Shown piece by piece: positions 3,863-59,258 of a stretch of 64,000 bases of DNA. The notes under the pieces are model-generated. The model was not told the DNA's origin. It was given only the letters and a program-made list of their open reading frames with translations, and ran no database searches. Every line of letters begins with the position of its first letter. The stretch's first letter is position 1. The stretch comes from Methylomonas sp. AM2-LC (GTDB lineage Bacteria; Pseudomonadota; Gammaproteobacteria; Methylococcales; Methylomonadaceae). The DNA is taken from positions 2,604,001 to 2,668,000 of the forward strand of contig NZ_CP157005.1 of assembly GCF_039904985.1 (NCBI RefSeq). The letters run 5' to 3'. The position numbers and the translations under genes were made by a program.

Positions 3863-6052
3863 TTAAAAGCTGACATTCAGTGTCAGATATCCGGTACGCC
3901 CAGGCCCAGGAACGGCATGACTTTCTGATGAACTGGAATAATAGGCGCTCTGCAAATAATATTTATTGGTGACGTTATCAAGATTCAGTTGCACGTTAAA
4001 ATGTTTATCAATCTGGTAAGAAGTCATCATATTCCATAGCGCGTAGCCTGCCATGCGTGCGGAGTTATCCGGAGAAGCGTATCGCGGTCCATAGACATAC
4101 ACACCGCTGCCTACTTTCCAGCTATCGGTTGGCGTATAAGTCGTCCATAAATTATAGGTGTCGCTGGCGACATTCGGCACTTTGTTGCCCACTTCGCTTA
4201 AGCCCGTATCTGTATTTATGCCGTTGACGATTAAGGCATTGAGATGGGTGTAACCAGTATTGATTTCCCAGTTTTGGGTGATTCGGCCATTTAGGGTTAA
4301 TTCTAATCCTCTGACGCGTTCGCCGAAAGTGACCGCTTGTAAGGTTGGATCGTTCGGGTCTGCCACTCTTAAATTGTCAGCTTGGAGTTGAAATAAAGCA
4401 CCGTTCAATGACAGTTTGCCGTTTAACAAACTTAGCTTGCCGCCCAGTTCCAGATTAGTGGTTTTTTGCGGTGTTAACGACGTAGTGGAGGGGGCTAGGG
4501 TTAAATACTGTATGGCTGGGTTATAAGATGTGCCGTAAGAGAAATAATAGCTTTGCGTGTCGAATGGCTTAAAAACCAATGCCGCGCGCGGACTTAGCAA
4601 GGAATTGTTTTCGGTAAAAGAATTTCCGGATTGACTGTCATAAAATTTGGAGATAAACCGATCAAAATTCAACCCCGCCATTACATCCCATTGCTCGGTT
4701 ACATGTAAGGTATCGACTGTGTATAAATTAATATCATCACCACGTGATCCGGGCTGCGCAGCAATTTGTGACTGGATGGACAACACCTGTTGCGGATTAG
4801 GGTTCAATAAGGATGTGGGTGTTATTTGGTCAATTTGATTGGCATAGCGTGTGGTGCTCATGCTTTCGCGGCTTAAGCCCAGTCCTGTGACCAGATCGTG
4901 TTTAAATTGGCCGGTATTAAATTGCGTCGTTAAATTCATGCGGTCGGCAAATAGCGTGGTGTATCCGGCGCTACTGGGTTGATCGCGATATACCAGAATT
5001 TGATCGAGTGCGGTGCCTATAGACGGCGGGTTGTCGCCTAATGTTGGCGATGTGACTTGGTAGTTAAAGTCATAGCTGCCATAGCGAAAGGTATTGGTGA
5101 ATTTTGTTTTTGAATTGAATGCATGTTCAAAACTGGCTGTTAGTACATTGGTGTCTGTTTGTGTGCGATCATAATTTGCTAATCCGTAAAATTTATTACG
5201 TGCTACCGGGGCAACCGATCCCCAGAGAATTGGAATGCCATAGTCTGGAATATTGTTCTCTTCCTGATGCAAATAACTGAGGGTTAATCGTGTCGGTCCA
5301 TCCATGCCGAAACTGATAGAGGGGGCAAATCCATAACGCCGGTTTAGAGCGATGTCGCGATCTGCAATATTGGAACGTTCGGCCATGAGTGCAAGCCGAA
5401 CCGCAGTACCGGGATTGATGACTTCATTAAAATCACCCGTTATACGTGCTAAAGCATTGGTGCCGCCTTTTACGGCAAAGGAACGCAGTGTGGTTTGTGT
5501 TGGCATCTTGCTTTCCTGATTAACCACGCCCGCTGTCGAACCATAACCAAACATGACCGATGAGGAACCTTTGATGACATCCACTGATTCCAGATTGAAA
5601 CTGTCGCGGGTGTAGTTACCAGGGTCGCGTAAGCCATCCATGAAAAATCCGTTTTGCACCACCAGACCACGAAGATTGACATTATCGCCATGAGCGCCGC
5701 CTTCGCCAGAGTTCATGGTAATGCCTGCTACGTTTTTTAGGGCATCTTGTAAGCGGGTAATCGATTGGTTTTGTAGTTGCTCTTTGTCAATGACATCTAT
5801 GGCTTGCGGGGTATCTTGAATAGGTGCTGAATATAGATCCAGATTGAGTTTACGCAGATTGTTATTGTCGTTAGTAGTTGAACTTGCTTCAACATTGACT
5901 TCTGGCAAAACGCTGTCATTATCCGCTTTAGCGACTTGCGACCAGGTGCTGGAAGCCGCAATGCCAAATACCGTTGCCCCTATGAACTGACTAGGTGTAT
6001 TGACTAAATGAGTTTTACGACTTTTGTTATGCGGGTAACTTCGAATAGGCAT
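3863..6052 (-). CDS. TonB-dependent catecholate siderophore receptor (Fiu/PiuA-like)
   Basis: A 729-residue outer-membrane receptor. After the N-terminal export region come a TonB-box-like segment, a plug domain (QAIDVIDKEQLQNQSITRL, then NVNLRGLVVQNGFFMDGLRD and VDVIKGSSSVMFGYG) and a long beta-barrel ending in an aromatic residue (LTLNVSF), the usual outer-membrane insertion signal. Position upstream of a Sel1 gene and piuC supports a catecholate siderophore receptor of the Fiu/PiuA type. A Fur-box-like site lies about 100 bp upstream. The exact ligand cannot be told from sequence. Confidence 0.93.
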   Translation of the reverse strand: MPIRSYPHNKSRKTHLVNTPSQFIGATVFGIAASSTWSQVAKADNDSVLPEVNVEASSTTNDNNNLRKLNLDLYSAPIQDTPQAIDVIDKEQLQNQSITRLQDALKNVAGITMNSGEGGAHGDNVNLRGLVVQNGFFMDGLRDPGNYTRDSFNLESVDVIKGSSSVMFGYGSTAGVVNQESKMPTQTTLRSFAVKGGTNALARITGDFNEVINPGTAVRLALMAERSNIADRDIALNRRYGFAPSISFGMDGPTRLTLSYLHQEENNIPDYGIPILWGSVAPVARNKFYGLANYDRTQTDTNVLTASFEHAFNSKTKFTNTFRYGSYDFNYQVTSPTLGDNPPSIGTALDQILVYRDQPSSAGYTTLFADRMNLTTQFNTGQFKHDLVTGLGLSRESMSTTRYANQIDQITPTSLLNPNPQQVLSIQSQIAAQPGSRGDDINLYTVDTLHVTEQWDVMAGLNFDRFISKFYDSQSGNSFTENNSLLSPRAALVFKPFDTQSYYFSYGTSYNPAIQYLTLAPSTTSLTPQKTTNLELGGKLSLLNGKLSLNGALFQLQADNLRVADPNDPTLQAVTFGERVRGLELTLNGRITQNWEINTGYTHLNALIVNGINTDTGLSEVGNKVPNVASDTYNLWTTYTPTDSWKVGSGVYVYGPRYASPDNSARMAGYALWNMMTSYQIDKHFNVQLNLDNVTNKYYLQSAYYSSSSESHAVPGPGRTGYLTLNVSF

Positions 6053-39283: not shown

Positions 39284-39335
39284 AAAAAAAAAGGCATCCC
39301 AATGGTAATGAATAATTCATTCCATTAGGACGCCT
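39284..39335 (-). terminator. Leader terminator upstream of nirB
   Basis: On the minus strand a 14-bp stem (AGGCGTCCTAATGG pairing with CCATTGGGATGCCT, two G-U pairs) continues into an AATGAAT/ATTCATT inner stem, and nine U residues follow. It lies between the sigma-54 promoter and the nirB start, so transcription would stop before nirB unless antiterminated. The block GACAAAGGCGTC at its 5' side is identical in the nrtA leader terminator. Confidence 0.88.
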
Positions 39336-39388
39336 TTGTCCAAGGTAACAATGATCAAATTAATCTCAGCGGGAGATTGCTTATGGTT

Positions 39389-39405
39389 AAGCAAGCTGTG
39401 TGCCA
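39389..39405 (-). promoter_or_regulatory. Sigma-54 promoter of the nirB operon
   Basis: The minus strand reads TGGCACACAGCTTGCTT, a perfect match to the sigma-54 consensus TGGCAC-N5-TTGCT with the GG and GC dinucleotides spaced by 10 nt. It is about 195 bp from the nirB start and upstream of the leader terminator. Confidence 0.9.
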
Positions 39406-39466
39406 GTTTTAAATATGATTTGAGTCAATGGTTTATCGGATGTTGGGTGTTTGGGTTTAGAGTATT

Positions 39467-41828: not shown

Positions 41829-44225
41829 GTGGACTTTAAACGCAAACTTTTATACTTGGCGGTTTCTACAGCTTTATTGCCTAGCACAATGGTTCTGGCT
41901 GCTGATACTGTTGCGGGTACAGGTAATTCTGAGCCAACAGTGAGTTCAGAGAGTGATGCGGTTAATACTTTAGATACCGTAAAAGTTTCTGCAGTGAGTG
42001 TGGGGCGAGGCAGTAATGTTGAAAAAATGGATATTAGTACCACTGTTATTTCCAGACAGCAAATTCAGGAAAGTGCGGAGCTGACTCTCGATCAAATTTT
42101 GAATCGGCAAATGGGCATTTTTACGTCCAATACCTTGCCTGGTCAAACTGACCCTACCGGTGCCACGGTGCAAATGCGTGGTTTTGGTGCCAGCGGCGAA
42201 AAAGTATTGGTTACTGTGGACGGTGTGCCCATCAATGACGGATTTTTCAGAACTATAGACTGGAACCAAGTTCCAAAGGATACCATTGAAAAAATCGAAA
42301 TTATCCGTGGTGGCGGTGGGGCGGCCATGTGGGGTAATCTTGCTGAAGGTGGGGTTATCAATATTATCACTCGCGAGCCAATAAAAGATGAAAAACGCGC
42401 TGGCGCAGCCTACGGTTCTTTTAATACTGTAGCTGGTGATTTGGCGGGTACTTTGTATCACAGCAGCGATGTGAAAGTAGGGGCTAACTTTAATGCCATT
42501 TCGTCTGATGGCTATAATATGACGCCTAACGCTTATCATGTGACACCTAATATCAGCGCGACGGTTAATAGCACCAATAACGGTTTAATATCTGCCTATT
42601 TTACACCTAACGATTATTCCAAATATTTTGTAAAGTTTCTGGCTTCTGAGCAGTTGATGGATAAAGGGGCGGGTGGTTTTGCGCTGGGTAATAACCAATG
42701 GTACAAATACGATTTTCGCAGCGGTGGTGAAATTAAATATTCCAAAACCGGTAGTATGAACTTCAATGCCTATTACAATCACTCGGAACAGGACCGAATG
42801 AATGGTGCTTTGATACAGCCAAATGGTTCAGGCTTAACCATCAGTGGTGTAGCCAATGATCCTAATCAATCTTATTTGACACTACTGGCAAATTCTAAAG
42901 CCTATGCCCAGCAAATTGAATCTCAGCAATACCAAACCTATGGTGCTGCGGCTTTTATTCAGGAACAGTTTCATGGCAATTGGGGCGATGCTAAAGATGT
43001 TAAAGTAGGTTTTGATGCGCGCGGTATTAATATTGATGATACTATGCAAGTTAATGCAGCTGTATCATCATCAACCTCTTCAACGTTAAATCCCGGATCG
43101 TTTTTGGCTAATGGCAGCACTTACAAGTATGCCAACATTAACACGAGTGCCAGCAATGCCTTTGAAGGTATTTTTGCACAAGCCACATTCAGCCCAAAAG
43201 ATATACCACTGGATGTAACCGTTGGTTTGCGGGACGATTTTTGGCAAGCGTTTGACGCTTATGGTACTACCAGTTTGTATAAAACCAACGGTACTTTTAA
43301 CAAACCTACGTTCGCTAACAAAACACCTAGCCAGGGATTTTATCAGTTTAATCCGCGCTTAGGTTTAAAGTATATGTTTGATTCTGGCGTGGATTTACGC
43401 GGTGCCATTTACAGAAATTTTGCCGCCCCTGGTATGAATAATCTGTATAGAACTTATTATGGTTCTAATGCTGCTTACGAGGCAAACGCTTCCTTGAATC
43501 CAGAAACCAACTTTGGTCAAGAGATTGGGATCGATTTTACTAATGATACGGTCAAAACCAAGTTTACTGCTTACCATAATGAACTGAGTAATTTTATTAA
43601 CAGTGTCACCTTGTGTAACACGGGTGCTACCTGTACAGCTGGTGGTGCTAATAGCTATGTTAACCAATTTAATTTAAGTTCTAATACTACCTCAATCGGT
43701 TGGAATCAAAACATCGGCACGGCTACTATGGAAGGCGGTGAGTTTTCGGTGGATTGGCAAGCAACCCCCACCTTTGATATTAATGCTGGCGTAAATAGAA
43801 CATGGGCGTATATGAACTCATTTACTGGTCAATTTGCTGCGCTAAATGCTGCTTCTGCGGCGGGTAACCATGGTGTTGCTGCGTATTATTTGAATAGACA
43901 AATTCCTAATGTGCAGCCCTGGACTCTGAATTTGGGTGGTAAATGGGATTTCTATCCAGACTTCTCTGTCTCTTGGACAATTAAAAGCTGGCCAGCCTAT
44001 TGGACCAATACACAGGCAATACCTGGTAGTAACCAGCAAAATACTGCGGCCACTACTGCGGACATGCACTTTAATTACAAAGCCAATAAACGTCTTGATT
44101 TGTATATCAATGCGCAAAACTTGTCTAATGCTTCTTATATCACCACCAACTCAAATGGCACTTCTTCCATACCAACCATGGGTATGCCACGAAATATCAT
44201 GGGTGGTTTTAAGTTTAGCTGGTAA
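41829..44225 (+). CDS. TonB-dependent outer-membrane receptor
   Basis: A 798-residue receptor starting at GTG 41829. The signal peptide ends near VLAAD (about 24), the plug domain includes STTVISRQQIQESAELTLDQ, VQMRGFGASGEKVLVTVDGV and IEIIRGGGGAAMWGNLAEGG, and the barrel ends in FKFSW with a terminal aromatic residue. It is followed by a sialidase-fold lipoprotein on the same strand, with a hairpin between. The ligand is unknown; the partner's His and CxCC motifs raise metal uptake as a possibility. No Fur box was seen upstream; a sigma-54-like element is. Confidence 0.93.
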   Translation: MDFKRKLLYLAVSTALLPSTMVLAADTVAGTGNSEPTVSSESDAVNTLDTVKVSAVSVGRGSNVEKMDISTTVISRQQIQESAELTLDQILNRQMGIFTSNTLPGQTDPTGATVQMRGFGASGEKVLVTVDGVPINDGFFRTIDWNQVPKDTIEKIEIIRGGGGAAMWGNLAEGGVINIITREPIKDEKRAGAAYGSFNTVAGDLAGTLYHSSDVKVGANFNAISSDGYNMTPNAYHVTPNISATVNSTNNGLISAYFTPNDYSKYFVKFLASEQLMDKGAGGFALGNNQWYKYDFRSGGEIKYSKTGSMNFNAYYNHSEQDRMNGALIQPNGSGLTISGVANDPNQSYLTLLANSKAYAQQIESQQYQTYGAAAFIQEQFHGNWGDAKDVKVGFDARGINIDDTMQVNAAVSSSTSSTLNPGSFLANGSTYKYANINTSASNAFEGIFAQATFSPKDIPLDVTVGLRDDFWQAFDAYGTTSLYKTNGTFNKPTFANKTPSQGFYQFNPRLGLKYMFDSGVDLRGAIYRNFAAPGMNNLYRTYYGSNAAYEANASLNPETNFGQEIGIDFTNDTVKTKFTAYHNELSNFINSVTLCNTGATCTAGGANSYVNQFNLSSNTTSIGWNQNIGTATMEGGEFSVDWQATPTFDINAGVNRTWAYMNSFTGQFAALNAASAAGNHGVAAYYLNRQIPNVQPWTLNLGGKWDFYPDFSVSWTIKSWPAYWTNTQAIPGSNQQNTAATTADMHFNYKANKRLDLYINAQNLSNASYITTNSNGTSSIPTMGMPRNIMGGFKFSW

Positions 44226-51353: not shown

Positions 51354-52311
51354 GGAGTTTCTCCTGTGTTAAAAGTTCGTTTTTTGTGGTGAATATTTCT
51401 TGATTGTCCTGCATGCCTATTTATGTAGAAAGGGCGAAGGATGTGCCAACCAACGAGCCGCGCATCATTCGATTTCGATACTCTAAATATCAGGCGGGAT
51501 TATGTTACCCCAGTTTATTTGCATAAACCCCTTCGTCTACAACTATTACTAACTGAAATTCTTTCCCAGTTTTCAATTTTTTTGGAGAATGCGCCTTTAA
51601 GCCTATTCCAGCGTGTTGAAAAACTGGTATCGTCGTCAGGTAATGTCAATATACAACGAAGATGATCGATCAATAATTGGTTTACCTTGCGTTCGGCAAG
51701 ATTAACGGTAAAAAATCATGTGGCACCCGGAATGTAATGTCTACGCTATTTGGTCATGATGATAGATTAACTTTCAAGTGATGCGCTCATCTGGTATGGA
51801 TAGTAATAAATTGAACGTCAAGTTTCAAGCATTTACGTGCCATAGATCAGAAATACCAGCCTGTCGGATTTTGTTAAGGGATGTCAGATGCCTGCCTTTC
51901 AACTCAAGACTGCAAGATGCAACGTCCTATCTGATCTGAGCGAGCAAACTTAAATGACAAATTTGGTTTGGATTTTTATGTCTAAAGCTATGTATTTAGT
52001 AACTATTTGCCGCATGTTTTCCAGTAGGCGACAAGTTTGGTTTTAAGTGCAGGGCGCATCAATCTCGTCAGATGTGCTTCACATCGTTCAGCACATCCTA
52101 TATGCCATTGATTCTTAATTATAAATACGACGTTATTTGTGTTTTTTTATTATTCAGTGAGGCAATTCGAAATATCACCACTAATGTTTGTTCCAAAATA
52201 ACGTTGAGAACACGTGTTAATATTTGCTAGTGTAAGCAGATTTTCGTACCTGTGGTTAATGGTATGTAAAATGCTTAAATTATTTCAATATTGTTAACTT
52301 GTACTGCCGCC
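51354..52311. other. Gene-poor region upstream of narK
   Basis: About 960 bp. It contains the 22-bp element at 51935-51956 (shared with 41531-41552) and a partial 72-bp-family repeat at 52051-52102. A frame at 51441-51665 has no recognisable domain. I found no NtrC or sigma-54 site for narK here comparable to those of nrtA and nirB. Confidence 0.45.
52051..52102 (-). repeat. Partial copy of the 72-bp dispersed repeat
   Basis: On the minus strand it reads TATAGGATGTGCTGAAC, then GAAGCACATCTG and GATTGATGCGCCCT, aligning with the first 50 bp of the full copies at 56320 and 60755. It lacks the GTCGGCACATCCTAT end. Confidence 0.7.
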
Positions 52312-53790
52312 ATGCCTATTTCTCCTTTCAAACTGTTCTCTATGCAAGGCAAAACCAAAATATTGCATATGAGCTGGATGGCTTTTTTTGTCAGTTTTGT
52401 GGTTTGGTTTAATCATGCGCCTTTAATGATGCTGATTAAACAGGAAATGGGGCTTACCCAGCAGCAAGTTGAAATTATTTTGCTATTAAATGTGGCGCTT
52501 ACTATTCCCGCCCGTGTGATTATTGGCATGGTAGTAGACCGATTTGGTGCAAAAATTAGTTACAGTATATTGCTGGCGGCCTCCAGCATCCCTTGCTTTA
52601 TGTTTGCTCTGGCTGATAATTTTGTGGAGCTTGCCTGGTCGCGTTTTTTACTGGGATTTATTGGTGCTGGTTTTGTTGTAGGTGTGCGCATTATTGGCGA
52701 TTGGTTCCCTGCCAACCAGATTGGTACTGCGGAAGGTATTTATGCGGGTTGGGGTAATTTTGGTTCTGCCATAGCAACCCTATTATTGCCTGGTTTGGCT
52801 TATTATTTGGGGGCGGAGCAGGGCTGGCGTTTAGCGGTTGCTAGCACTGGAGTATTGGCCATTATCTATGCGGTTATTTATTACCTAAATGTTGAGAATC
52901 TTCCGCCCGAATTAGCTGGGTTAAAAACTAAACGTGCAGCGACGATGGAGGTAAGCAGTATCAGTGATTTATTTCTGTATATGTTAAGCCTGATACCCTT
53001 ATATGCCAGCATGTCTTTATTGACTTGGAAACTTTCCAGTCCAGAAAGCCCTTTAATTTCTCTTAGTTGGGCCACCTTAAGCCATGTGTGCATTTGGTTG
53101 GTGTTTTTTATGCATGCTTATCAATTGGTTAATACCAATGCGCAGCGTTTAACACAGCCGATTGCCAGTATTCATCATTATCGCTATAGGCAAGTGTTTA
53201 TTTTGGCGATTGCCTATTTAATTACCTTTGGCTCCAAACTGGCTGTGTTGTCTATGTTGCCGATGTTTTTTTATACGACCTTTAGTGTTTCTCAGCATTT
53301 GTCCTTGTTCGATGCGGGATTATTGGCTTCCAGCTTTGTCATTACCAATATTATTGCCCGTCCTGTGGGAGGATTACTGAGTGATACTTGGGGGCGTAAA
53401 CTGGCCTTAACGGTGTTTTCCGTCGGATTAACGCTTGGTTATCTGCTGATGTCCATGATTTCTGCGGATTGGTCGTTATTGTTAACGGTATTGGTAACCT
53501 TGCTGTGTTCTGTCTTTATGCAAGCTGCTGAGGGAGCCATTTTTGCTTTTGTGCCGTTAGTTAGACGTGCCATTACTGGCGAAGTAGCCGGTATAGTGGG
53601 TGCTTATGGCAATGCGGGGGCAATAGTGTATTTGATATTATTGACTTTCTTGACACCCAGTCAGTTTTTTTTGTTGTTAGGCGGTTGTTGCATTGTGTTA
53701 CTAGGCCTGATTTTCTATTTGGAAGAACCGCGTAGTTTTATTACACAAATCATGCCGGATGGTACGGTACTTAAAATCGAGATTAATTAG
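52312..53790 (+). CDS. narK: NarK/NasA-type nitrate/nitrite MFS transporter
   Basis: About 492 residues and twelve hydrophobic segments, with the NarK-family signatures FNHAPLMMLIKQEMGLT, ARVIIGMVVDRFGAK, FVVGVRIIGDWFP and AEGIYAGWGNFGSA. It moves nitrate across the inner membrane. I use ATG 52312; the in-frame TTG at 52291 adds residues outside the family. It is followed after 2 bp by nasT, so transporter and regulator are cotranscribed. A second, ABC-type uptake system lies just downstream. Confidence 0.92.
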   Translation: MPISPFKLFSMQGKTKILHMSWMAFFVSFVVWFNHAPLMMLIKQEMGLTQQQVEIILLLNVALTIPARVIIGMVVDRFGAKISYSILLAASSIPCFMFALADNFVELAWSRFLLGFIGAGFVVGVRIIGDWFPANQIGTAEGIYAGWGNFGSAIATLLLPGLAYYLGAEQGWRLAVASTGVLAIIYAVIYYLNVENLPPELAGLKTKRAATMEVSSISDLFLYMLSLIPLYASMSLLTWKLSSPESPLISLSWATLSHVCIWLVFFMHAYQLVNTNAQRLTQPIASIHHYRYRQVFILAIAYLITFGSKLAVLSMLPMFFYTTFSVSQHLSLFDAGLLASSFVITNIIARPVGGLLSDTWGRKLALTVFSVGLTLGYLLMSMISADWSLLLTVLVTLLCSVFMQAAEGAIFAFVPLVRRAITGEVAGIVGAYGNAGAIVYLILLTFLTPSQFFLLLGGCCIVLLGLIFYLEEPRSFITQIMPDGTVLKIEIN

Positions 53791-53792
53791 AG

Positions 53793-54371
53793 ATGGCTGC
53801 CCTTAAAGTGCTGGTCATTGATGAATTTGATTCGGGTGGCCTAATAGAAAAAAGTTTGCAAGCGTATGGTTTTGAAATTGCCACTTTAAAGTTGCAAGCT
53901 TTACATTTGCTGGATGTGGTTAAAACGCTGCAACCGAATGTGGTGGTATTAAATTTATACAGCCCCAATGCTAATGTATTAAACATGATGCGCGAGCTTA
54001 ATCAACAGTATGCGGTGCCGGTGGTGGTATTTGCCGAAGATCAGCAAACCGATACCATTAATCAGGTGATTAAGGCGGGTGTCAGTGCTTATATCGTCGA
54101 TGGTCTGGAACCCAAACGTTTAAAAGCCATTATCGATATTGCTATTGCACGTTTTAATGAGCATAAGGAACTGAAAGACGAGCTTAAAAAGACTAAAACG
54201 CAGTTGGAAGATCGTAAGTTGATTGATCGAGCGAAAGCAATTTTGATTAAATCGCAAGCGTATACTGAGGAACAGGCTTATCAATCTTTACGTAAATTGG
54301 CTATGGATAGAGGGATTTCGCTTGGAGAAATGGCTAAAAATGTGATTGCTATGGCTGAGTTGTTTAAGTGA
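53793..54371 (+). CDS. nasT: ANTAR-domain antitermination regulator NasT
   Basis: A 192-residue protein: an N-terminal receiver-like domain (about 5-120) and a C-terminal ANTAR RNA-binding domain (LIDRAKAILIKSQAYTEEQA, YQSLRKLAMDRGISLGEMA). NasT binds a two-hairpin leader RNA and prevents termination in front of nitrate-assimilation genes. The usual phospho-acceptor Asp is Asn54 here (VVVLNLYSP), although the acidic pocket (IDEFD) remains. NasT proteins are normally held inactive by NasS when nitrate is absent; no nasS is adjacent. The leader it should recognise is about 360 bp downstream, before nrtA. Confidence 0.92.
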   Translation: MAALKVLVIDEFDSGGLIEKSLQAYGFEIATLKLQALHLLDVVKTLQPNVVVLNLYSPNANVLNMMRELNQQYAVPVVVFAEDQQTDTINQVIKAGVSAYIVDGLEPKRLKAIIDIAIARFNEHKELKDELKKTKTQLEDRKLIDRAKAILIKSQAYTEEQAYQSLRKLAMDRGISLGEMAKNVIAMAELFK

Positions 54372-54531: not shown

Positions 54532-54569
54532 TGCACCAAGAATTCACCCTTACGCACCAAAATTGTGCT
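54532..54569. promoter_or_regulatory. NtrC-type enhancer sites upstream of nrtA
   Basis: CGCACCAAAATTGTGCT at 54553-54569 is a good match to the NtrC consensus TGCACCAAAATGGTGCA. A half-site TGCACCAA begins at 54532, 21 bp (two turns) away. They lie about 130-165 bp upstream of the sigma-54 element. Confidence 0.7.
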
Positions 54570-54697
54570 GTTTATTACATTAATGCCAATTAAACAGGAC
54601 GTGGTTTAATTTTATTTTATTATTTTTTTGGTTTTAAAAATTTCAAGTGATTGAATTGATGTAATAAATAAAACTAAGGGTTTGCTTTAAAAAATAA

Positions 54698-54714
54698 TGG
54701 CATCTAATTTGCTT
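54698..54714 (+). promoter_or_regulatory. Sigma-54 promoter of the nrt operon
   Basis: TGGCATCTAATTTGCTT matches TGGCAC-N5-TTGCT at all but one position, with GG (54699-54700) and GC (54711-54712) separated by exactly 10 nt. Transcription should begin near 54725, just before the first leader hairpin. Confidence 0.88.
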
Positions 54715-54727
54715 TAAGTAAAGCAAT

Positions 54728-54767
54728 ACCCCAGCGTTGGGGTTAACAATTTGGCTCAATGTTGAGC
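54728..54767 (+). promoter_or_regulatory. ANTAR-target leader RNA: two hexaloop hairpins
   Basis: Hairpin 1: ACCCC-AGCGTT-GGGGT (54728-54743). Hairpin 2: GCTC-AATGTT-GAGC (54754-54767). Both loops are six nucleotides with A at position 1 and G at position 4, the defining signature of ANTAR-protein RNA targets. They are followed 9 nt later by an intrinsic terminator and preceded by the nasT gene. NasT binding is expected to permit read-through into nrtA. Confidence 0.9.
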
Positions 54768-54776
54768 AAACCAGAC

Positions 54777-54829
54777 AAAGGCGTCTTTCGAGTATGGCTA
54801 ATACCCTACGCGAAGGCGCCTTTTTTTTT
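54777..54829 (+). terminator. Leader terminator of the nrt operon
   Basis: The stem AAAGGCGTCTT pairs with AAGGCGCCTTT (one G-U, one bulge) and is followed by nine T residues at 54821-54829. It stands between the promoter and the nrtA start at 54863, so it must be overcome for expression. The 5' block GACAAAGGCGTC is shared exactly with the nirB leader. Confidence 0.92.
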
Positions 54830-54862
54830 GGCCTAAATTTTTTCAATCAACGGGTTTTATTT

Positions 54863-56245
54863 ATGAAATTTCAGAAGACATGCCTAGCAAGACATTTACT
54901 GACCACGGCAATTTTGATAGGACTTGGCTTTTCTAGCCAGGTTTCTGCTGCCGGAAAACTGGAGAAAGAAGATTTAAAATTCGGGTTTATCAAGCTCACT
55001 GATATGGCGCCTTTGGCTGTAGCTGCCGAAAAACGCTTTTTCGAAGACGAAGGCTTATTTGTGCAACTGGAAGCACAAGCCAATTGGAAAGTGGTTATGG
55101 ATCGGGTTATCAATGGTGAGCTTGACGGATCACATATGTTAGCTTCAGCGCCGTTGGCGTCCAGTTATGGTTTTGGTACTAAAGCCGATTTAGTGACTGC
55201 GTTTAGCATGGGGTTCAATGGCAGCGCAATTACGGTGGGGAATGATATCTGGGCACAAATGAAGCCTAATGTTGCTATGGAAGGTGGTAAGCCTGTGCAT
55301 CCAATTAAAGCAGATGCTTTAAAACCTGTGGTGGAAAAATATAAAAGTGCCGGTAAACCTTTCAATATGGCCATGACATTTCCAGCCGGTACCCATAATC
55401 TAAAATTACGTTACTGGTTAGCCGCAGGTGGTATTAATCCGGGTTTTTATGCGCCACCACAAGATATATCCGGCCAGATAAATGCAGATGCATTATTGTC
55501 TGTAACACCTCCACCGCAAATGCCAGCAACCTTGGAAGCAGGCACTATCTTTGGTTACTGCGTGGGTGAACCTTGGAATCAACAAGCCGTGTTTAAAGGA
55601 ATCGGGGTGCCGGTGATCACTGATGATGAATTATGGAAAGACACACCCGAAAAAGTGTTTGCCGTTACCCAAGCTTGGGCCGACAAATATCCCAATACCC
55701 ATAAAGCGGTGGTGAAGGCATTGATTAGAGCGTCCATTTGGCTAGATGCTGAAAATAATAAAAATCGTAAAGAAGCGATAGAAATGTTATCGCAAAAACA
55801 ATATGTGGGTGCTGATTTTGATGTTCTAGCTAACAGTATGACCGGAACCTTTGAATACGAAAAAGGTGATAAACGTAACTTGCCTGACTTTAATACTTTT
55901 TTCCGTAAAGGCGCCAGCTTTCCCTCTTATAGCAGTGCTATCTGGTATCTGACACAAATGCGCCGCTGGGGTGAAATTAACGAATACAAACCCGATGCCT
56001 GGTACATGGAAACAGCCAAAAAAGTTTATAGACCGGATATTTATTTGGCTGCTGCACAAGAACTGGTGGCAGAGGGCAAAGCCAAAGCCGAAGACTTTCC
56101 AGCGGATACCGGTATCAAACCTTCACAAAATTATTTTATCGACAAAATTCCATTTGATGCTGAAAAACCCAACGATTATCTCAGTAAGTTTACGATTGGT
56201 TTAAAAGGCAAACAAACCGTATCGGGTGGCAAAGTTGTTGATTAA
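54863..56245 (+). CDS. nrtA: Nitrate ABC transporter periplasmic substrate-binding protein NrtA
   Basis: About 460 residues from ATG 54863 (MKFQKTCLARHLLTTAILIG), the first start beyond the leader terminator. A Sec signal peptide of about 29 residues (cleavage near QVSAA) sends it to the periplasm, which separates it from the cytoplasmic sensor NasS. The body matches NrtA/CmpA-type binding proteins (FGFIKLTDMAPLAVAAEKRF, GELDGSHMLASAPLASSYGF, MTFPAGTHNLKLRYWLAAGG, YCVGEPWNQQAV). It delivers nitrate, possibly also nitrite, to NrtB/NrtCD. It heads the nrt operon. Confidence 0.94.
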   Translation: MKFQKTCLARHLLTTAILIGLGFSSQVSAAGKLEKEDLKFGFIKLTDMAPLAVAAEKRFFEDEGLFVQLEAQANWKVVMDRVINGELDGSHMLASAPLASSYGFGTKADLVTAFSMGFNGSAITVGNDIWAQMKPNVAMEGGKPVHPIKADALKPVVEKYKSAGKPFNMAMTFPAGTHNLKLRYWLAAGGINPGFYAPPQDISGQINADALLSVTPPPQMPATLEAGTIFGYCVGEPWNQQAVFKGIGVPVITDDELWKDTPEKVFAVTQAWADKYPNTHKAVVKALIRASIWLDAENNKNRKEAIEMLSQKQYVGADFDVLANSMTGTFEYEKGDKRNLPDFNTFFRKGASFPSYSSAIWYLTQMRRWGEINEYKPDAWYMETAKKVYRPDIYLAAAQELVAEGKAKAEDFPADTGIKPSQNYFIDKIPFDAEKPNDYLSKFTIGLKGKQTVSGGKVVD

Positions 56246-56319: not shown

Positions 56320-56392
56320 TATAGGATGTGCCGACGCCAGAGGGCGCATCAATCGCGACAGATGCGCTTCATTCTGTTCAACGCATCCTATA
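56320..56392 (-). repeat. Full copy of the 72-bp dispersed repeat, inside the nrt operon
   Basis: It sits in the 235-bp gap between nrtA and nrtB. On the minus strand it begins TATAGGATGCGTTGAAC, has GAAGCGCATCTGTCGCGATT in the centre and ends GGCGTCGGCACATCCTAT. The ends are inverted (TAGGATG and CATCCTA), giving a MITE-like or REP-like unit that may fold in the nrt mRNA. Confidence 0.82.
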
Positions 56393-56480: not shown

Positions 56481-57494
56481 ATGATCAAAAAACTGATTAA
56501 ATTTTTTAACATTACCGGTCTCATCTGGTTTGTACCGCTACTTAAAATTGCCGCTGGCGAAAATCCAAAACAGCAACTGCGCCAATTATGGTTAATTATG
56601 GGATTGCCCATTATTGCTTTTATGTTGTTTTTGGGTTTTTGGAGTGTTTCGGCTTCAGGTGTTAATACCAGTTTGGGTGCCATACCGGGCCCTGTAGCGG
56701 TTTGGACTGAAGTGAGTGGGCTGATTACTGAACACAGTGCCGAAATGCAGAAGCGCAGCGAGTTTTACCAACGCCAGGAACTGCGTAATAAAGAAAAATT
56801 GGCCGAAGATCCTAAAGCAGAAATAAAGTTTAGACCCTATACCGGCAAACCCACTTACTTAGATCAGATTTTTACTAGTTTGCGTACCGTATTTGCTGGT
56901 TTTATGATTGCCACCTTAATCGCCGTACCACTGGGCATACTGTGCGGTATGAATCCTTTATTGAATACCGCCATTAATCCTTTAATCCAGATTTTTAAAC
57001 CTGTATCACCTTTAGCTTGGTTGCCTATCGTCACCCTAGTTGTTAGTGCTGTGTACGTAACAGGTGATGATGCTTGGTTTGCTAAATCCTTTGTCACTTC
57101 CGCTATTACCGTTACTTTATGTTCACTATGGCCTACTTTAATTAATACGGCAGTTGGGGTGTCTTCTATTGATCGGGATTTGGTCAATGTCGGTAAAGTG
57201 CTGCGTTTAGATTGGAGTACGCAGATTAAGAGCATCATTCTGCCCTCAGCCTTACCTTATATCTTTACCGGCATGCGTTTATCGCTGGGGGTGGGTTGGA
57301 TGGTATTGATCGCCGCAGAAATGTTGGCGCAAAATCCGGGCTTAGGCAAGTTTATCTGGGATGAATTCCAAAACGGCAGCGCCAATTCACTTAGCCGCAT
57401 TATGGTGGCAGTATTCACTATCGGCTTCATCGGTTTTATTTTGGATCGCATTATGCAGTCCTTACAAAATGTATTTTCGTTTCAAAAAATTTAG
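56481..57494 (+). CDS. nrtB: Nitrate ABC transporter permease NrtB
   Basis: A 337-residue inner-membrane permease of the binding-protein-dependent family (YLDQIFTSLRTVFAGFMIAT, PVSPLAWLPIVTLV, the EAA-loop region DRDLVNVGKVLRLDWSTQIK, then LSLGVGWMVLIAAEMLAQNP). An extra N-terminal segment of about 100 residues with one helix is present, as in other NrtB proteins. It forms the channel with NrtCD. It starts 9 bp before the nrtC region and follows nrtA after the repeat-containing gap. Confidence 0.94.
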   Translation: MIKKLIKFFNITGLIWFVPLLKIAAGENPKQQLRQLWLIMGLPIIAFMLFLGFWSVSASGVNTSLGAIPGPVAVWTEVSGLITEHSAEMQKRSEFYQRQELRNKEKLAEDPKAEIKFRPYTGKPTYLDQIFTSLRTVFAGFMIATLIAVPLGILCGMNPLLNTAINPLIQIFKPVSPLAWLPIVTLVVSAVYVTGDDAWFAKSFVTSAITVTLCSLWPTLINTAVGVSSIDRDLVNVGKVLRLDWSTQIKSIILPSALPYIFTGMRLSLGVGWMVLIAAEMLAQNPGLGKFIWDEFQNGSANSLSRIMVAVFTIGFIGFILDRIMQSLQNVFSFQKI

Positions 57495-57503
57495 GAGCGA
57501 ATC

Positions 57504-59258
57504 ATGCAACAAGCAACCGCTAAAATATTTCAACTGTCTATGTCTGATACTTTGCATACCACACCCGCCAACGATGCCTATAAACCATTGTTGGAATTAA
57601 AAAATGTAAATAAATCGTATGGGGAGGGTAATGCCCGTGTAAACATACTAAAAGACATTAATCTTGAGATTCGTGCTGGGGAATTTATTGCGATTGTGGG
57701 CTTTTCCGGTAGTGGAAAAACCACGCTAATTTCTTTGATAGCTGGATTAATCCAAGCTGATAGTGGCGAAGTGTTAAAAAATGGCTTAGCCATACTACAG
57801 CCAGGACCAGATCGCGGTGTGGTATTTCAAAATTATTCGTTAATGCCGTGGTTGACTGTGTTTGATAATGTGGCGCTGGCTGTGGATGCCATATTTAAAG
57901 ATTGGACACCCAGTCAACGCCGCGCGCATACCGAAAAATATGTGCGTATGGTCAATTTGGGTGCAGCCATGGATAAAAAGCCGGCGGAATTATCCGGTGG
58001 TATGCGGCAACGGGTGAATGTGGCACGTGCTTTAGCTGCAAATCCAGATATATTATTGTTGGATGAACCGTTGAGTGCCTTGGATGCCTTAACCAGAGGC
58101 AATTTACAGGACGAGATACTGCAAATTTGGGAGCAGGAAAAAAAGACCGTTATTCTTATTACCAATGATGTTGATGAAGCCATTTATATGGCTGATCGGG
58201 TTATACCGCTTAAGCCTGGCCCCAATGCCAGTTTTGGCCCGGCTTTTAACATTGATCTTGAGCGACCACGCGATAGAACAGCTTTAAATCATAATCCGGA
58301 ATTTAAACGTTTACGGGCAGAAATTACCCGTTATTTAATGGCTATTGGTATGGAAAAAAACCAAACCGAAGCCGTAGATAAAATTATCCTGCCAGCGGTG
58401 CGACCCAATACCAGCAACGACTGGAAGTTGGATAGCTCGGCACTAAAACCCAGCCAAACACAATTAGGTAAAGCTCGTTATCTGGAATTTGCCAATTTGT
58501 CTAAAGTATATCCCACGCCTGACGGTAATAGCACTGTGACGGTGGTTGATGGTTTTGATCTGAAAATTAAAAAAGGCGAATTCATTTCTATTATTGGTCA
58601 CTCCGGTTGTGGTAAGTCAACTGTGTTATCCATGACTGCTGGATTGAACGAAATTTCTGATGGCAGCATTATTCTGGATAATCGCGAGATTGACGGAGCC
58701 GGACCTGATCGTGGTGTGGTGTTTCAAGCGCCCAGTTTGTTTCCGTGGCTGACTGCTTTTCAAAATGTGATGCTGGGTGTGGATAAAGTCTATCCACATG
58801 CCCAACTAGAAGAACGTGAAGATATCGTTGAATATTATCTGACTCGTGTGGGTTTAGCCGATGCTATGTATAAAAAAGCAGCGGATATGTCCAATGGTAT
58901 GCGACAACGAGTGGGTATTGCCCGTGCTTTTGCTTTATCACCAAAATTACTGTTACTGGATGAACCCTTTGGCATGTTGGATTCGCTAACGCGCTGGGAA
59001 TTACAGGAAGTATTGATGGAAGTTTGGGAGCGTACCCATGTTACGGCTATTGTTGTGACGCATGATGTGGACGAAGCCATACTACTGGCCGACCGCGTGG
59101 TAATGATGACCAATGGTCCGCGCGCCAAAATTGGCAAAATTCAAGACATTGATTTACCCAGACCACGTACCCGCAAAGCTTTGCTGGAACATCCTGATTA
59201 TTACCAATACCGGGAAAGTTTATTGAGCTTTCTTAGCGCCTGTGACCACACGCATTAA
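57504..59258 (+). CDS. nrtC: Nitrate ABC transporter ATPase, fused NrtC-NrtD (two nucleotide-binding domains)
   Basis: A 584-residue protein with two ABC ATPase domains in tandem. Domain 1 (about 30-275): Walker A GFSGSGKTT, signature LSGGMRQRV, Walker B ILLLDEP, but the switch position reads ITNDVDEA (Asn in place of His). Domain 2 (about 325-575): Walker A GHSGCGKST, signature MSNGMRQRV, Walker B LLLLDEP and an intact THDVDEA. It corresponds to NrtC and NrtD joined, without the NrtA-like C-terminal regulatory domain of cyanobacterial NrtC. An ATG at 57540 is an alternative start. The asymmetry suggests only one efficient hydrolysis site. Confidence 0.92.
   Translation: MQQATAKIFQLSMSDTLHTTPANDAYKPLLELKNVNKSYGEGNARVNILKDINLEIRAGEFIAIVGFSGSGKTTLISLIAGLIQADSGEVLKNGLAILQPGPDRGVVFQNYSLMPWLTVFDNVALAVDAIFKDWTPSQRRAHTEKYVRMVNLGAAMDKKPAELSGGMRQRVNVARALAANPDILLLDEPLSALDALTRGNLQDEILQIWEQEKKTVILITNDVDEAIYMADRVIPLKPGPNASFGPAFNIDLERPRDRTALNHNPEFKRLRAEITRYLMAIGMEKNQTEAVDKIILPAVRPNTSNDWKLDSSALKPSQTQLGKARYLEFANLSKVYPTPDGNSTVTVVDGFDLKIKKGEFISIIGHSGCGKSTVLSMTAGLNEISDGSIILDNREIDGAGPDRGVVFQAPSLFPWLTAFQNVMLGVDKVYPHAQLEEREDIVEYYLTRVGLADAMYKKAADMSNGMRQRVGIARAFALSPKLLLLDEPFGMLDSLTRWELQEVLMEVWERTHVTAIVVTHDVDEAILLADRVVMMTNGPRAKIGKIQDIDLPRPRTRKALLEHPDYYQYRESLLSFLSACDHTH

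Follow-up and report, generated by a model that had tools for sequence, protein, structure and literature searches.

The window, that is, the whole 64,000-nt stretch of the Methylomonas sp. AM2-LC genome that was analysed, encodes a narK-type transporter and the ANTAR protein NasT directly upstream of nrtABC. The region between nasT and nrtA holds promoter, hairpin and terminator elements, and a sibling leader lies before nirB on the opposite strand. The features are, in window coordinates:

39286..39413, minus strand: nirB leader with a sigma-54 element (TGGCACACAGCTTGCT), a non-canonical first hairpin, a P3 block (GGACAAAGGCGTCC) and a terminator; 30.3 bits, E 0.004 with the covariance model R1 described below.
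52260..52275, plus strand: sigma-54-like element TGGTATGTAAAATGCT, 5' of narK-nasT.
52291..53790, plus strand: narK-type nitrate/nitrite transporter gene (TIGR00886, 305.5 bits, just below the cut-off of 311.7).
53793..54371, plus strand: nasT, coding for a pseudo-receiver and an ANTAR domain; the genome's single ANTAR match.
54554..54568, no strand assigned: NtrC-type palindrome GCAC-N7-GTGC, about 140 nt 5' of the sigma-54 element.
54698..54713, plus strand: near-perfect sigma-54 -24/-12 element TGGCATCTAATTTGCT, with TGGCAT-N5-TTGC at 54698-54712 and GG-N10-GC spacing.
54729..54742, plus strand: hexaloop hairpin P1, stem CCCC/GGGG, loop AGCGTT; in the RNAalifold consensus, A1/G4 in 26/29 leaders.
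54754..54767, plus strand: hexaloop hairpin P2, stem GCTC/GAGC, loop AATGTT; in the RNAalifold consensus, A1/G4 in 26/29 leaders.
54773..54786, plus strand: hexaloop hairpin P3, stem AGAC/GTCT, loop AAAGGC; its loop and 3' arm are the 5' arm of the terminator.
54777..54829, plus strand: intrinsic terminator with nine Us (nine Ts at 54821-54829); in the consensus fold of 29 leaders.
54863..56245, plus strand: nrtA, nitrate ABC transporter binding protein (NMT1_2, 317.5 bits), the first gene of nrtABC.
56481..57494, plus strand: nrtB-like permease gene (TIGR01183, 160.2 bits, under the cut-off of 209.05).
57504..59258, plus strand: gene of an nrtC/D-like fused ATPase (TIGR01184, 603.9 bits).

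NrtA carries an N-terminal signal peptide, as judged by eye from its sequence. The true start of narK may be the ATG at 52312, and its stop codon lies 2 nt 5' of nasT. Similar repeat-like stretches (gggcgcatcaat followed by cacatcct or cgcatcct) were seen by eye at about 52052-52101 and 56342-56391, flanking narK-nasT-nrtA. Elsewhere in the window, two large proteins (41829-44225 and 3863-6052) look like TonB-dependent receptors, also by eye.

The conservation of the leader was studied in a set of related loci. A NasT search retrieved 56 loci, all in Methylococcales records. An NrtA start was in reach in 28 of them, and together with the window 29 leaders were compared. A TGGCA-type sigma-54 element followed by a T-run terminator is located at the same place in 29/29. 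The strict form TGGCAY-N5-TTGC occurs twice in the window, in the nrtA leader and at 39405 on the minus strand before nirB, versus 0.14 per strand in mononucleotide shuffles. No sigma-70-like site was found on the plus strand between 54457 and 54900. From the promoter sequence we infer a transcription start of nrtA near 54725.

The palindrome GCAC-N7-GTGC has no second perfect copy within the window; a TGCACC half-site is located at 54532. With at most one mismatch, the palindrome is present in 22 of the 29 nrtA regions, window included, versus a mean of 1.6 and a maximum of 5 of 29 random stretches in 300 draws. Perfect copies are present in 4/29, versus a random mean of 0.08/29 and a maximum of 2 in the same number of draws. 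Within the genus, all 27 nrtA loci with the full pattern set, again including the window, have a perfect palindrome, a count made without a control run. The initial annotation had placed NtrC sites and a sigma-54 promoter here. Both elements are present where it located them, with the correction that the palindrome is a single one accompanied by the half-site. A sigma-54 -24/-12 element with an NtrC site upstream is also the NalA-type arrangement. NtrC is encoded in the genome (737.4 bits, cut-off 558.6), and this, together with the kept NtrC site and sigma-54 element, supports the earlier reading that low nitrogen acts at initiation.

The narK-nasT pair has a sigma-54-like element of its own, in the window a weak match. 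Among nine regions examined, such an element lies at -49 to -99 of narK in seven (window, L008, L009, L012, L013, L062 and L036, in the last of which narK does not adjoin nasT); it was not found in L010 and L011. The element suggests that the NasT supply itself is nitrogen-controlled.

Two hairpins of at least 3 bp with A1 and G4 in their hexaloops, the mark of ANTAR leaders, follow the promoter. RNAalifold on the 29 leaders returned P1, P2 and the terminator. P1 is paired in 97.1% of the cells, with changes on both sides in 3/5 pairs, and P2 in 99.1%, with both-side changes in 3/4 pairs. Six of nine pairs thus changed on both sides, a value reached in 0/500 shuffles and opposed to 1 to 3 in slid versions, although related sequences can exceed shuffles without any structure. 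The loop A1s of P1 and P2 are 25 nt apart. A1/G4 are kept in P1 together with P2 in 24/29 leaders, in P3 in 28/29 and in all three in 23/29; the leaders that miss them include that of a close relative, L008. In both P1 and P2, the folding program pairs A1 with U6 and therefore draws tetraloops. A1 is present in 27 (P1) and 28 (P2) of the leaders, and position 6 is a U in only 13 and 21, respectively. The near-fixed A1 beside a variable position 6 indicates that A1 is not kept solely for the A1-U6 pair.

Such an arrangement is rare by chance. A pair of A1/G4 hexaloops 23-30 nt apart with a downstream T-run occurs once on the plus strand and not on the minus strand of the window; in 40 first-order simulated strands the mean was 0.025, and none had such a pair together with the sigma-54 element. 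The leader transcript folds with a z of -4.6. The hexaloop hairpins, the nine-U terminator and nasT upstream of nrtA are all present as first described, and the hairpin pair with its T-run exceeds chance in simulations.

A covariance-model search had been proposed as a check of the ANTAR leader. Rfam at gathering scores gave no match in the window. Below these thresholds, P11 (RF00625) scored 15-18.7 bits (gathering score 70) and narK RNA (RF03032) 19.9 bits (gathering score 43.2); the sub-threshold matches to PyrR, Phe leader, ctRNA, MicX, sR58 and MIR319 were taken as chance. A model of our own, R1, was built from 24 leaders, none of them of the window clade; left out were the window and L008, L011 and L012 as test cases as well as the duplicate L053. 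R1 found the nrtA leader at 68.5 bits (E=6e-12). Only this site and the nirB leader had E <= 1 in the genome; scoring covered 150 of the 1437 candidates from the first look, and weaker sites may be missed. Across the genus, 33 of 37 genomes, including this one, had an R1 match at E <= 0.05, with only 28.6 bits in G118. Coordinates shared by G150 with L008 and by G152 with L011 identify this genus as Methylomonas. Promoter, P3 block and terminator were recognised by pattern in 28 of 31 genus loci (30 nrtA leaders including the window, and one nirB leader). Of these 28, 22 show P1, 23 show P2 and 20 show the two together. The other three of the 31, L085, L097 and L098, did not show the full pattern set and are not counted. 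The 12-mer GACRAAGGCGTC was rejected as a marker on its own: it had four matches in the genome versus five for the reversed control, and two of the four fall inside genes that look by eye like ilvB and trpS.

The initial annotation recognised P1 and P2, which are real, and mentioned neither P3 nor the nirB leader. The gene behind the latter is identified as nirB by 1340 bits on NF011565. In the window, the first hairpin of this leader is a pentaloop (CCGCT between AATCTC and GAGATT) and there is no clear P2. The nirB leader L071 is without canonical P1 and P2, so these two hairpins may not be strictly needed. With a sibling leader before nirB, nitrate uptake and reduction are probably under joint control, in a small predicted regulon of nrtABC and nirB.

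P3 differs from P2 in its relation to the terminator. The sequence 54774-54829 folds at -22.5 kcal/mol (z -4.7), and termination there would yield a leader RNA of about 105 nt. P2 ends nine bases short of the terminator start, and the two structures thus do not exclude each other, so the terminator overlap expected of an antiterminator hexaloop is found in P3 and not in P2. The bases GAC and GGCGTC of P3 are invariant in 29/29 leaders, and the GAC of the 5' arm is unpaired in the terminator fold. Since the P3 stem never varies, covariation cannot test it, and conservation of the block could reflect direct contact with a protein rather than pairing. In silico, P3 forms transiently, in competition with the terminator: its pairing probability is 0.95-0.97 with the transcript end at 54788-54796, 0.48-0.86 at 54800-54816 and 0 from 54820 onwards. 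Forcing P3 costs 12 kcal/mol relative to the terminator fold, which would leave NasT little time to act. The Rfam consensus lines for P11 (GGACAAAGGCGUCC) and narK RNA (GACAAAGACGUC) also contain P3-like blocks; with these and the copy before nirB, the block is not confined to methanotrophs. For the eut system, PMC8934654 describes the second hexaloop, which overlaps the terminator, as the antitermination hairpin and the first as the recruiting one. We propose P3, which alone overlaps the terminator, as a better candidate for the antiterminator than P2, with P1 and P2 as putative recruitment hairpins.

The NasT protein, a putative hexaloop binder, provides further support for antitermination. 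By alignment, it keeps seven RNA-contact positions of EutV: R141, K142, R146, K148, E159, Y163 and M171, corresponding to R142, K143, K147 (a lysine in EutV), K149, E160, Y164 and M172. The EutV contacts N173, R175 and R177 are not kept; by position, NasT has D172, G174 and S176. These mostly kept contact residues and the conserved, covarying hairpins support the NasT-type antitermination first suggested. The phosphoacceptor position of the receiver is an Asn, as in all 11 aligned Methylococcales NasTs; Methylocella NasT and EutV have an Asp. The protein is of the NasT kind of NasS-NasT systems. It has a receiver domain instead of the fused NIT nitrate-sensing domain of the NasR-nasF type. A structure of NasT predicted alone (pLDDT 77) added nothing.

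NasS is the nitrate sensor that inhibits NasT in described systems. It was not found in this genome by searches with NMT1_2 and with a NasS query, in an assembly scored 100% complete. NMT1_2 matched NrtA and two other binding proteins. The first of these was rejected as NasS as it sits among ABC transporter genes, and the second as it is lipoprotein-like and lies beside a sensor-like gene (both by eye). The query, a Methylocella CmpA/NrtA family protein encoded beside an ANTAR gene, which we read as NasS, matched NrtA only. As this Methylocella protein reaches 235 bits on NMT1_2, the NMT1_2 search should have found a NasS. The earlier claim that nitrate is sensed at elongation is therefore not supported as it was put: NasS, the nitrate route of described NasT systems, was not found in the genome, and nitrate sensing at this step is unproven here. 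In Paracoccus, loss of NasS leads to constitutive expression, according to PMC3795266; without NasS, NasT would be expected to be active here as soon as it is produced.

The neighbours of nasT differ across the order. An ANTAR match is present in 109 of 151 order genomes; 108 were kept for the overlap count of sensors, in which the five weakest ANTAR places were left out. NasS-grade matches (at least 316 bits, with a natural gap down to 239) occur in 26 genomes, 24 of family f4, one of f6 and one (G046) of the own family. NasS adjoins nasT in 17 of them and is farther off or on another contig in 9. A triple-GAF protein is encoded in 33/151 order genomes, all from other genera of the own family, and lies beside nasT in 26, following it on the same strand in 24 and convergent with it in 2. 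In the other 7, the gene is more distant or sits on a different contig. The NarK class to which the window protein belongs (at least 687 bits, gap down to 602.5; lower NarK matches among those listed were compared by eye with the ANTAR places) occurs in 31 genomes, where it always precedes nasT in the same orientation, within 700 nt of the ANTAR domain. NasS, triple-GAF and NasT-linked NarK are mutually exclusive, and 18/108 ANTAR genomes have none of them. The genome studied here has the NarK form. These three mutually exclusive NasT neighbours within one order suggest that the sensor in the NasS-NasT pair can be exchanged. That NarK, as a membrane transceptor controlling elongation, replaced the soluble NasS as the gate of NasT in Methylomonas-type methanotrophs, with triple-GAF in the same slot in sister genera, is a reading we regard as quite unlikely.

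The triple-GAF protein is conserved and about 305 aa long (example L046:6619-7533), and no genome that encodes it has a NasS-grade match. Its AlphaFold model (pLDDT 84) matches many GAF domains, those of phosphodiesterases and plant transcription factors first. Entries of the nitrate receptor NreA are among the matches (6k2h at rank 33, TMt 0.57; 6izj at rank 47, TMt 0.60), which is only a lead.

From the computed anatomy, conservation, NarK linkage and NasS searches we infer the binding, read-through and signal of a two-stage control of nrtABC, which we consider probable: initiation by NtrC and sigma-54, then antitermination by NasT via P1/P2 and P3, with a gate other than NasS. When nitrogen is limiting, phosphorylated NtrC bound to the palindrome at 54554 would activate sigma-54 RNA polymerase at 54698. 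By default, the transcript would end at the terminator 54777-54829. NasT may bind the emerging P1 and P2 hexaloops as recruitment sites and then hold P3, which shares bases with the 5' arm of the terminator, so that the polymerase would pass; both steps are modelled on EutV. A gap of 2 nt separates narK from nasT, and a sigma-54-like element precedes the pair. Most likely, therefore, the NasT level follows nitrogen limitation in a feed-forward AND gate; in this simplest model, nitrogen limitation would be read at two points. A further gate on NasT might come from the co-encoded NarK or from another ligand.

AmtB and GlnK are an example of a transporter that holds and releases a regulator. By this analogy, NarK itself could be the gate, keeping NasT at the membrane as long as nitrate is absent and releasing it during transport. 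The linkage in all 31 genomes of the NarK class, none of which has a NasS-grade or triple-GAF protein, is consistent with this idea. However, gene linkage is what it offers, and co-expression of uptake genes explains linkage equally well. The class was also delimited by a search with a NarK that is itself linked to NasT, a choice that favours linked copies, though the gap to the next match is wide, and NarK matched only MFS/NarK-type models. Overall, such a gate seems unlikely. Another ligand of NasT, such as cyclic di-GMP, is rather improbable here. The review PMC12830290 reports that cyclic di-GMP weakens NasT-NalA binding in P. putida, and some Methylobacter-type loci have P1/P2-like hairpins before EAL-domain genes (by reading), which could form a loop; the R1 search of this genome, within the candidates scored, gave the nrtA and nirB sites only. 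These Methylobacter-type loci lie near nasT and combine the hairpins with a sigma-54 element (L042:1526-1650, L027:8388-8501, L027:11493-11613, L061:9985-10120, L018:2529-2644 and L036:8504-8609, by reading). Three of them (L018, L036 and L027:8388) lack a terminator and have a start codon after P2; NasT might act on translation there or be sponged.

A classical two-hairpin ANTAR leader, in which binding to P1/P2 alone blocks termination and NasS senses nitrate, is very unlikely. The P1-P2 loop spacing is close to the 24 nt in eutP (A29 and A53; Ramesh et al., PMC3369931), and within the same order 24 of the 26 f4 genomes with an ANTAR match have a NasS-grade match. Against it, NasS was not found in this genome, only G046 of the own family has a NasS-grade match, and P2 and the terminator are not mutually exclusive. 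That the hairpins are conserved to stabilise the mRNA or to act as a small RNA, and not for NasT, is extremely improbable: a short terminated leader would be made and Pseudomonas P11 is filed as a small RNA in Rfam, but the A1/G4 loop identity, the near-fixed spacing, the nearby nasT and the P3 block shared with the nirB leader speak against it.

The probable two-stage control places NasT-type antitermination in methanotrophs, bacteria living on methane. With P3 named as the likeliest antiterminator hairpin, ANTAR control without the usual partner becomes directly testable. Among the matches listed, the accessible parts of the literature on NasT/ANTAR and on nitrogen control in methanotrophs contained no account of this leader or of a NasS-free NasT.

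Rfam P11, which we take to be NalA, shares with the leader described here initiation by sigma-54 and NtrC and antitermination by NasT, both probable in the latter, and the GGACAAAGGCGUCC block at the terminator. In Pseudomonas, this combination is known from the NalA leader of the nirBD operon and is described with NasS in a review (PMC12830290). As the combination is already published, the leader belongs to a known type. In contrast to NalA/P11, which works with NasS according to that review, searches of this genome gave no NasS, and the target that matches better is the nrtABC transporter. The narK RNA consensus, matched below its gathering score, starts with a sigma-54-like GGCaC...UUGC and ends with GACAAAGACGUC, close to the P3 block. 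Paracoccus denitrificans likewise has a NasT-type ANTAR protein and a hairpin leader before nitrate assimilation genes, as described in PMC3795266 and PMC5424462; it has NasS, whereas none was found here and nasT adjoins narK instead. EutV of Enterococcus shares A1/G4 hexaloops, a similar loop spacing and one hexaloop overlapping the terminator, according to PMC8934654 and PMC3369931. Unlike in the EutV system, there are three hexaloops, the third being the overlapping one, and the NasT receiver has an Asn in place of the EutV Asp. The apparent exchange of NasS is what sets this system apart from known NasT systems.
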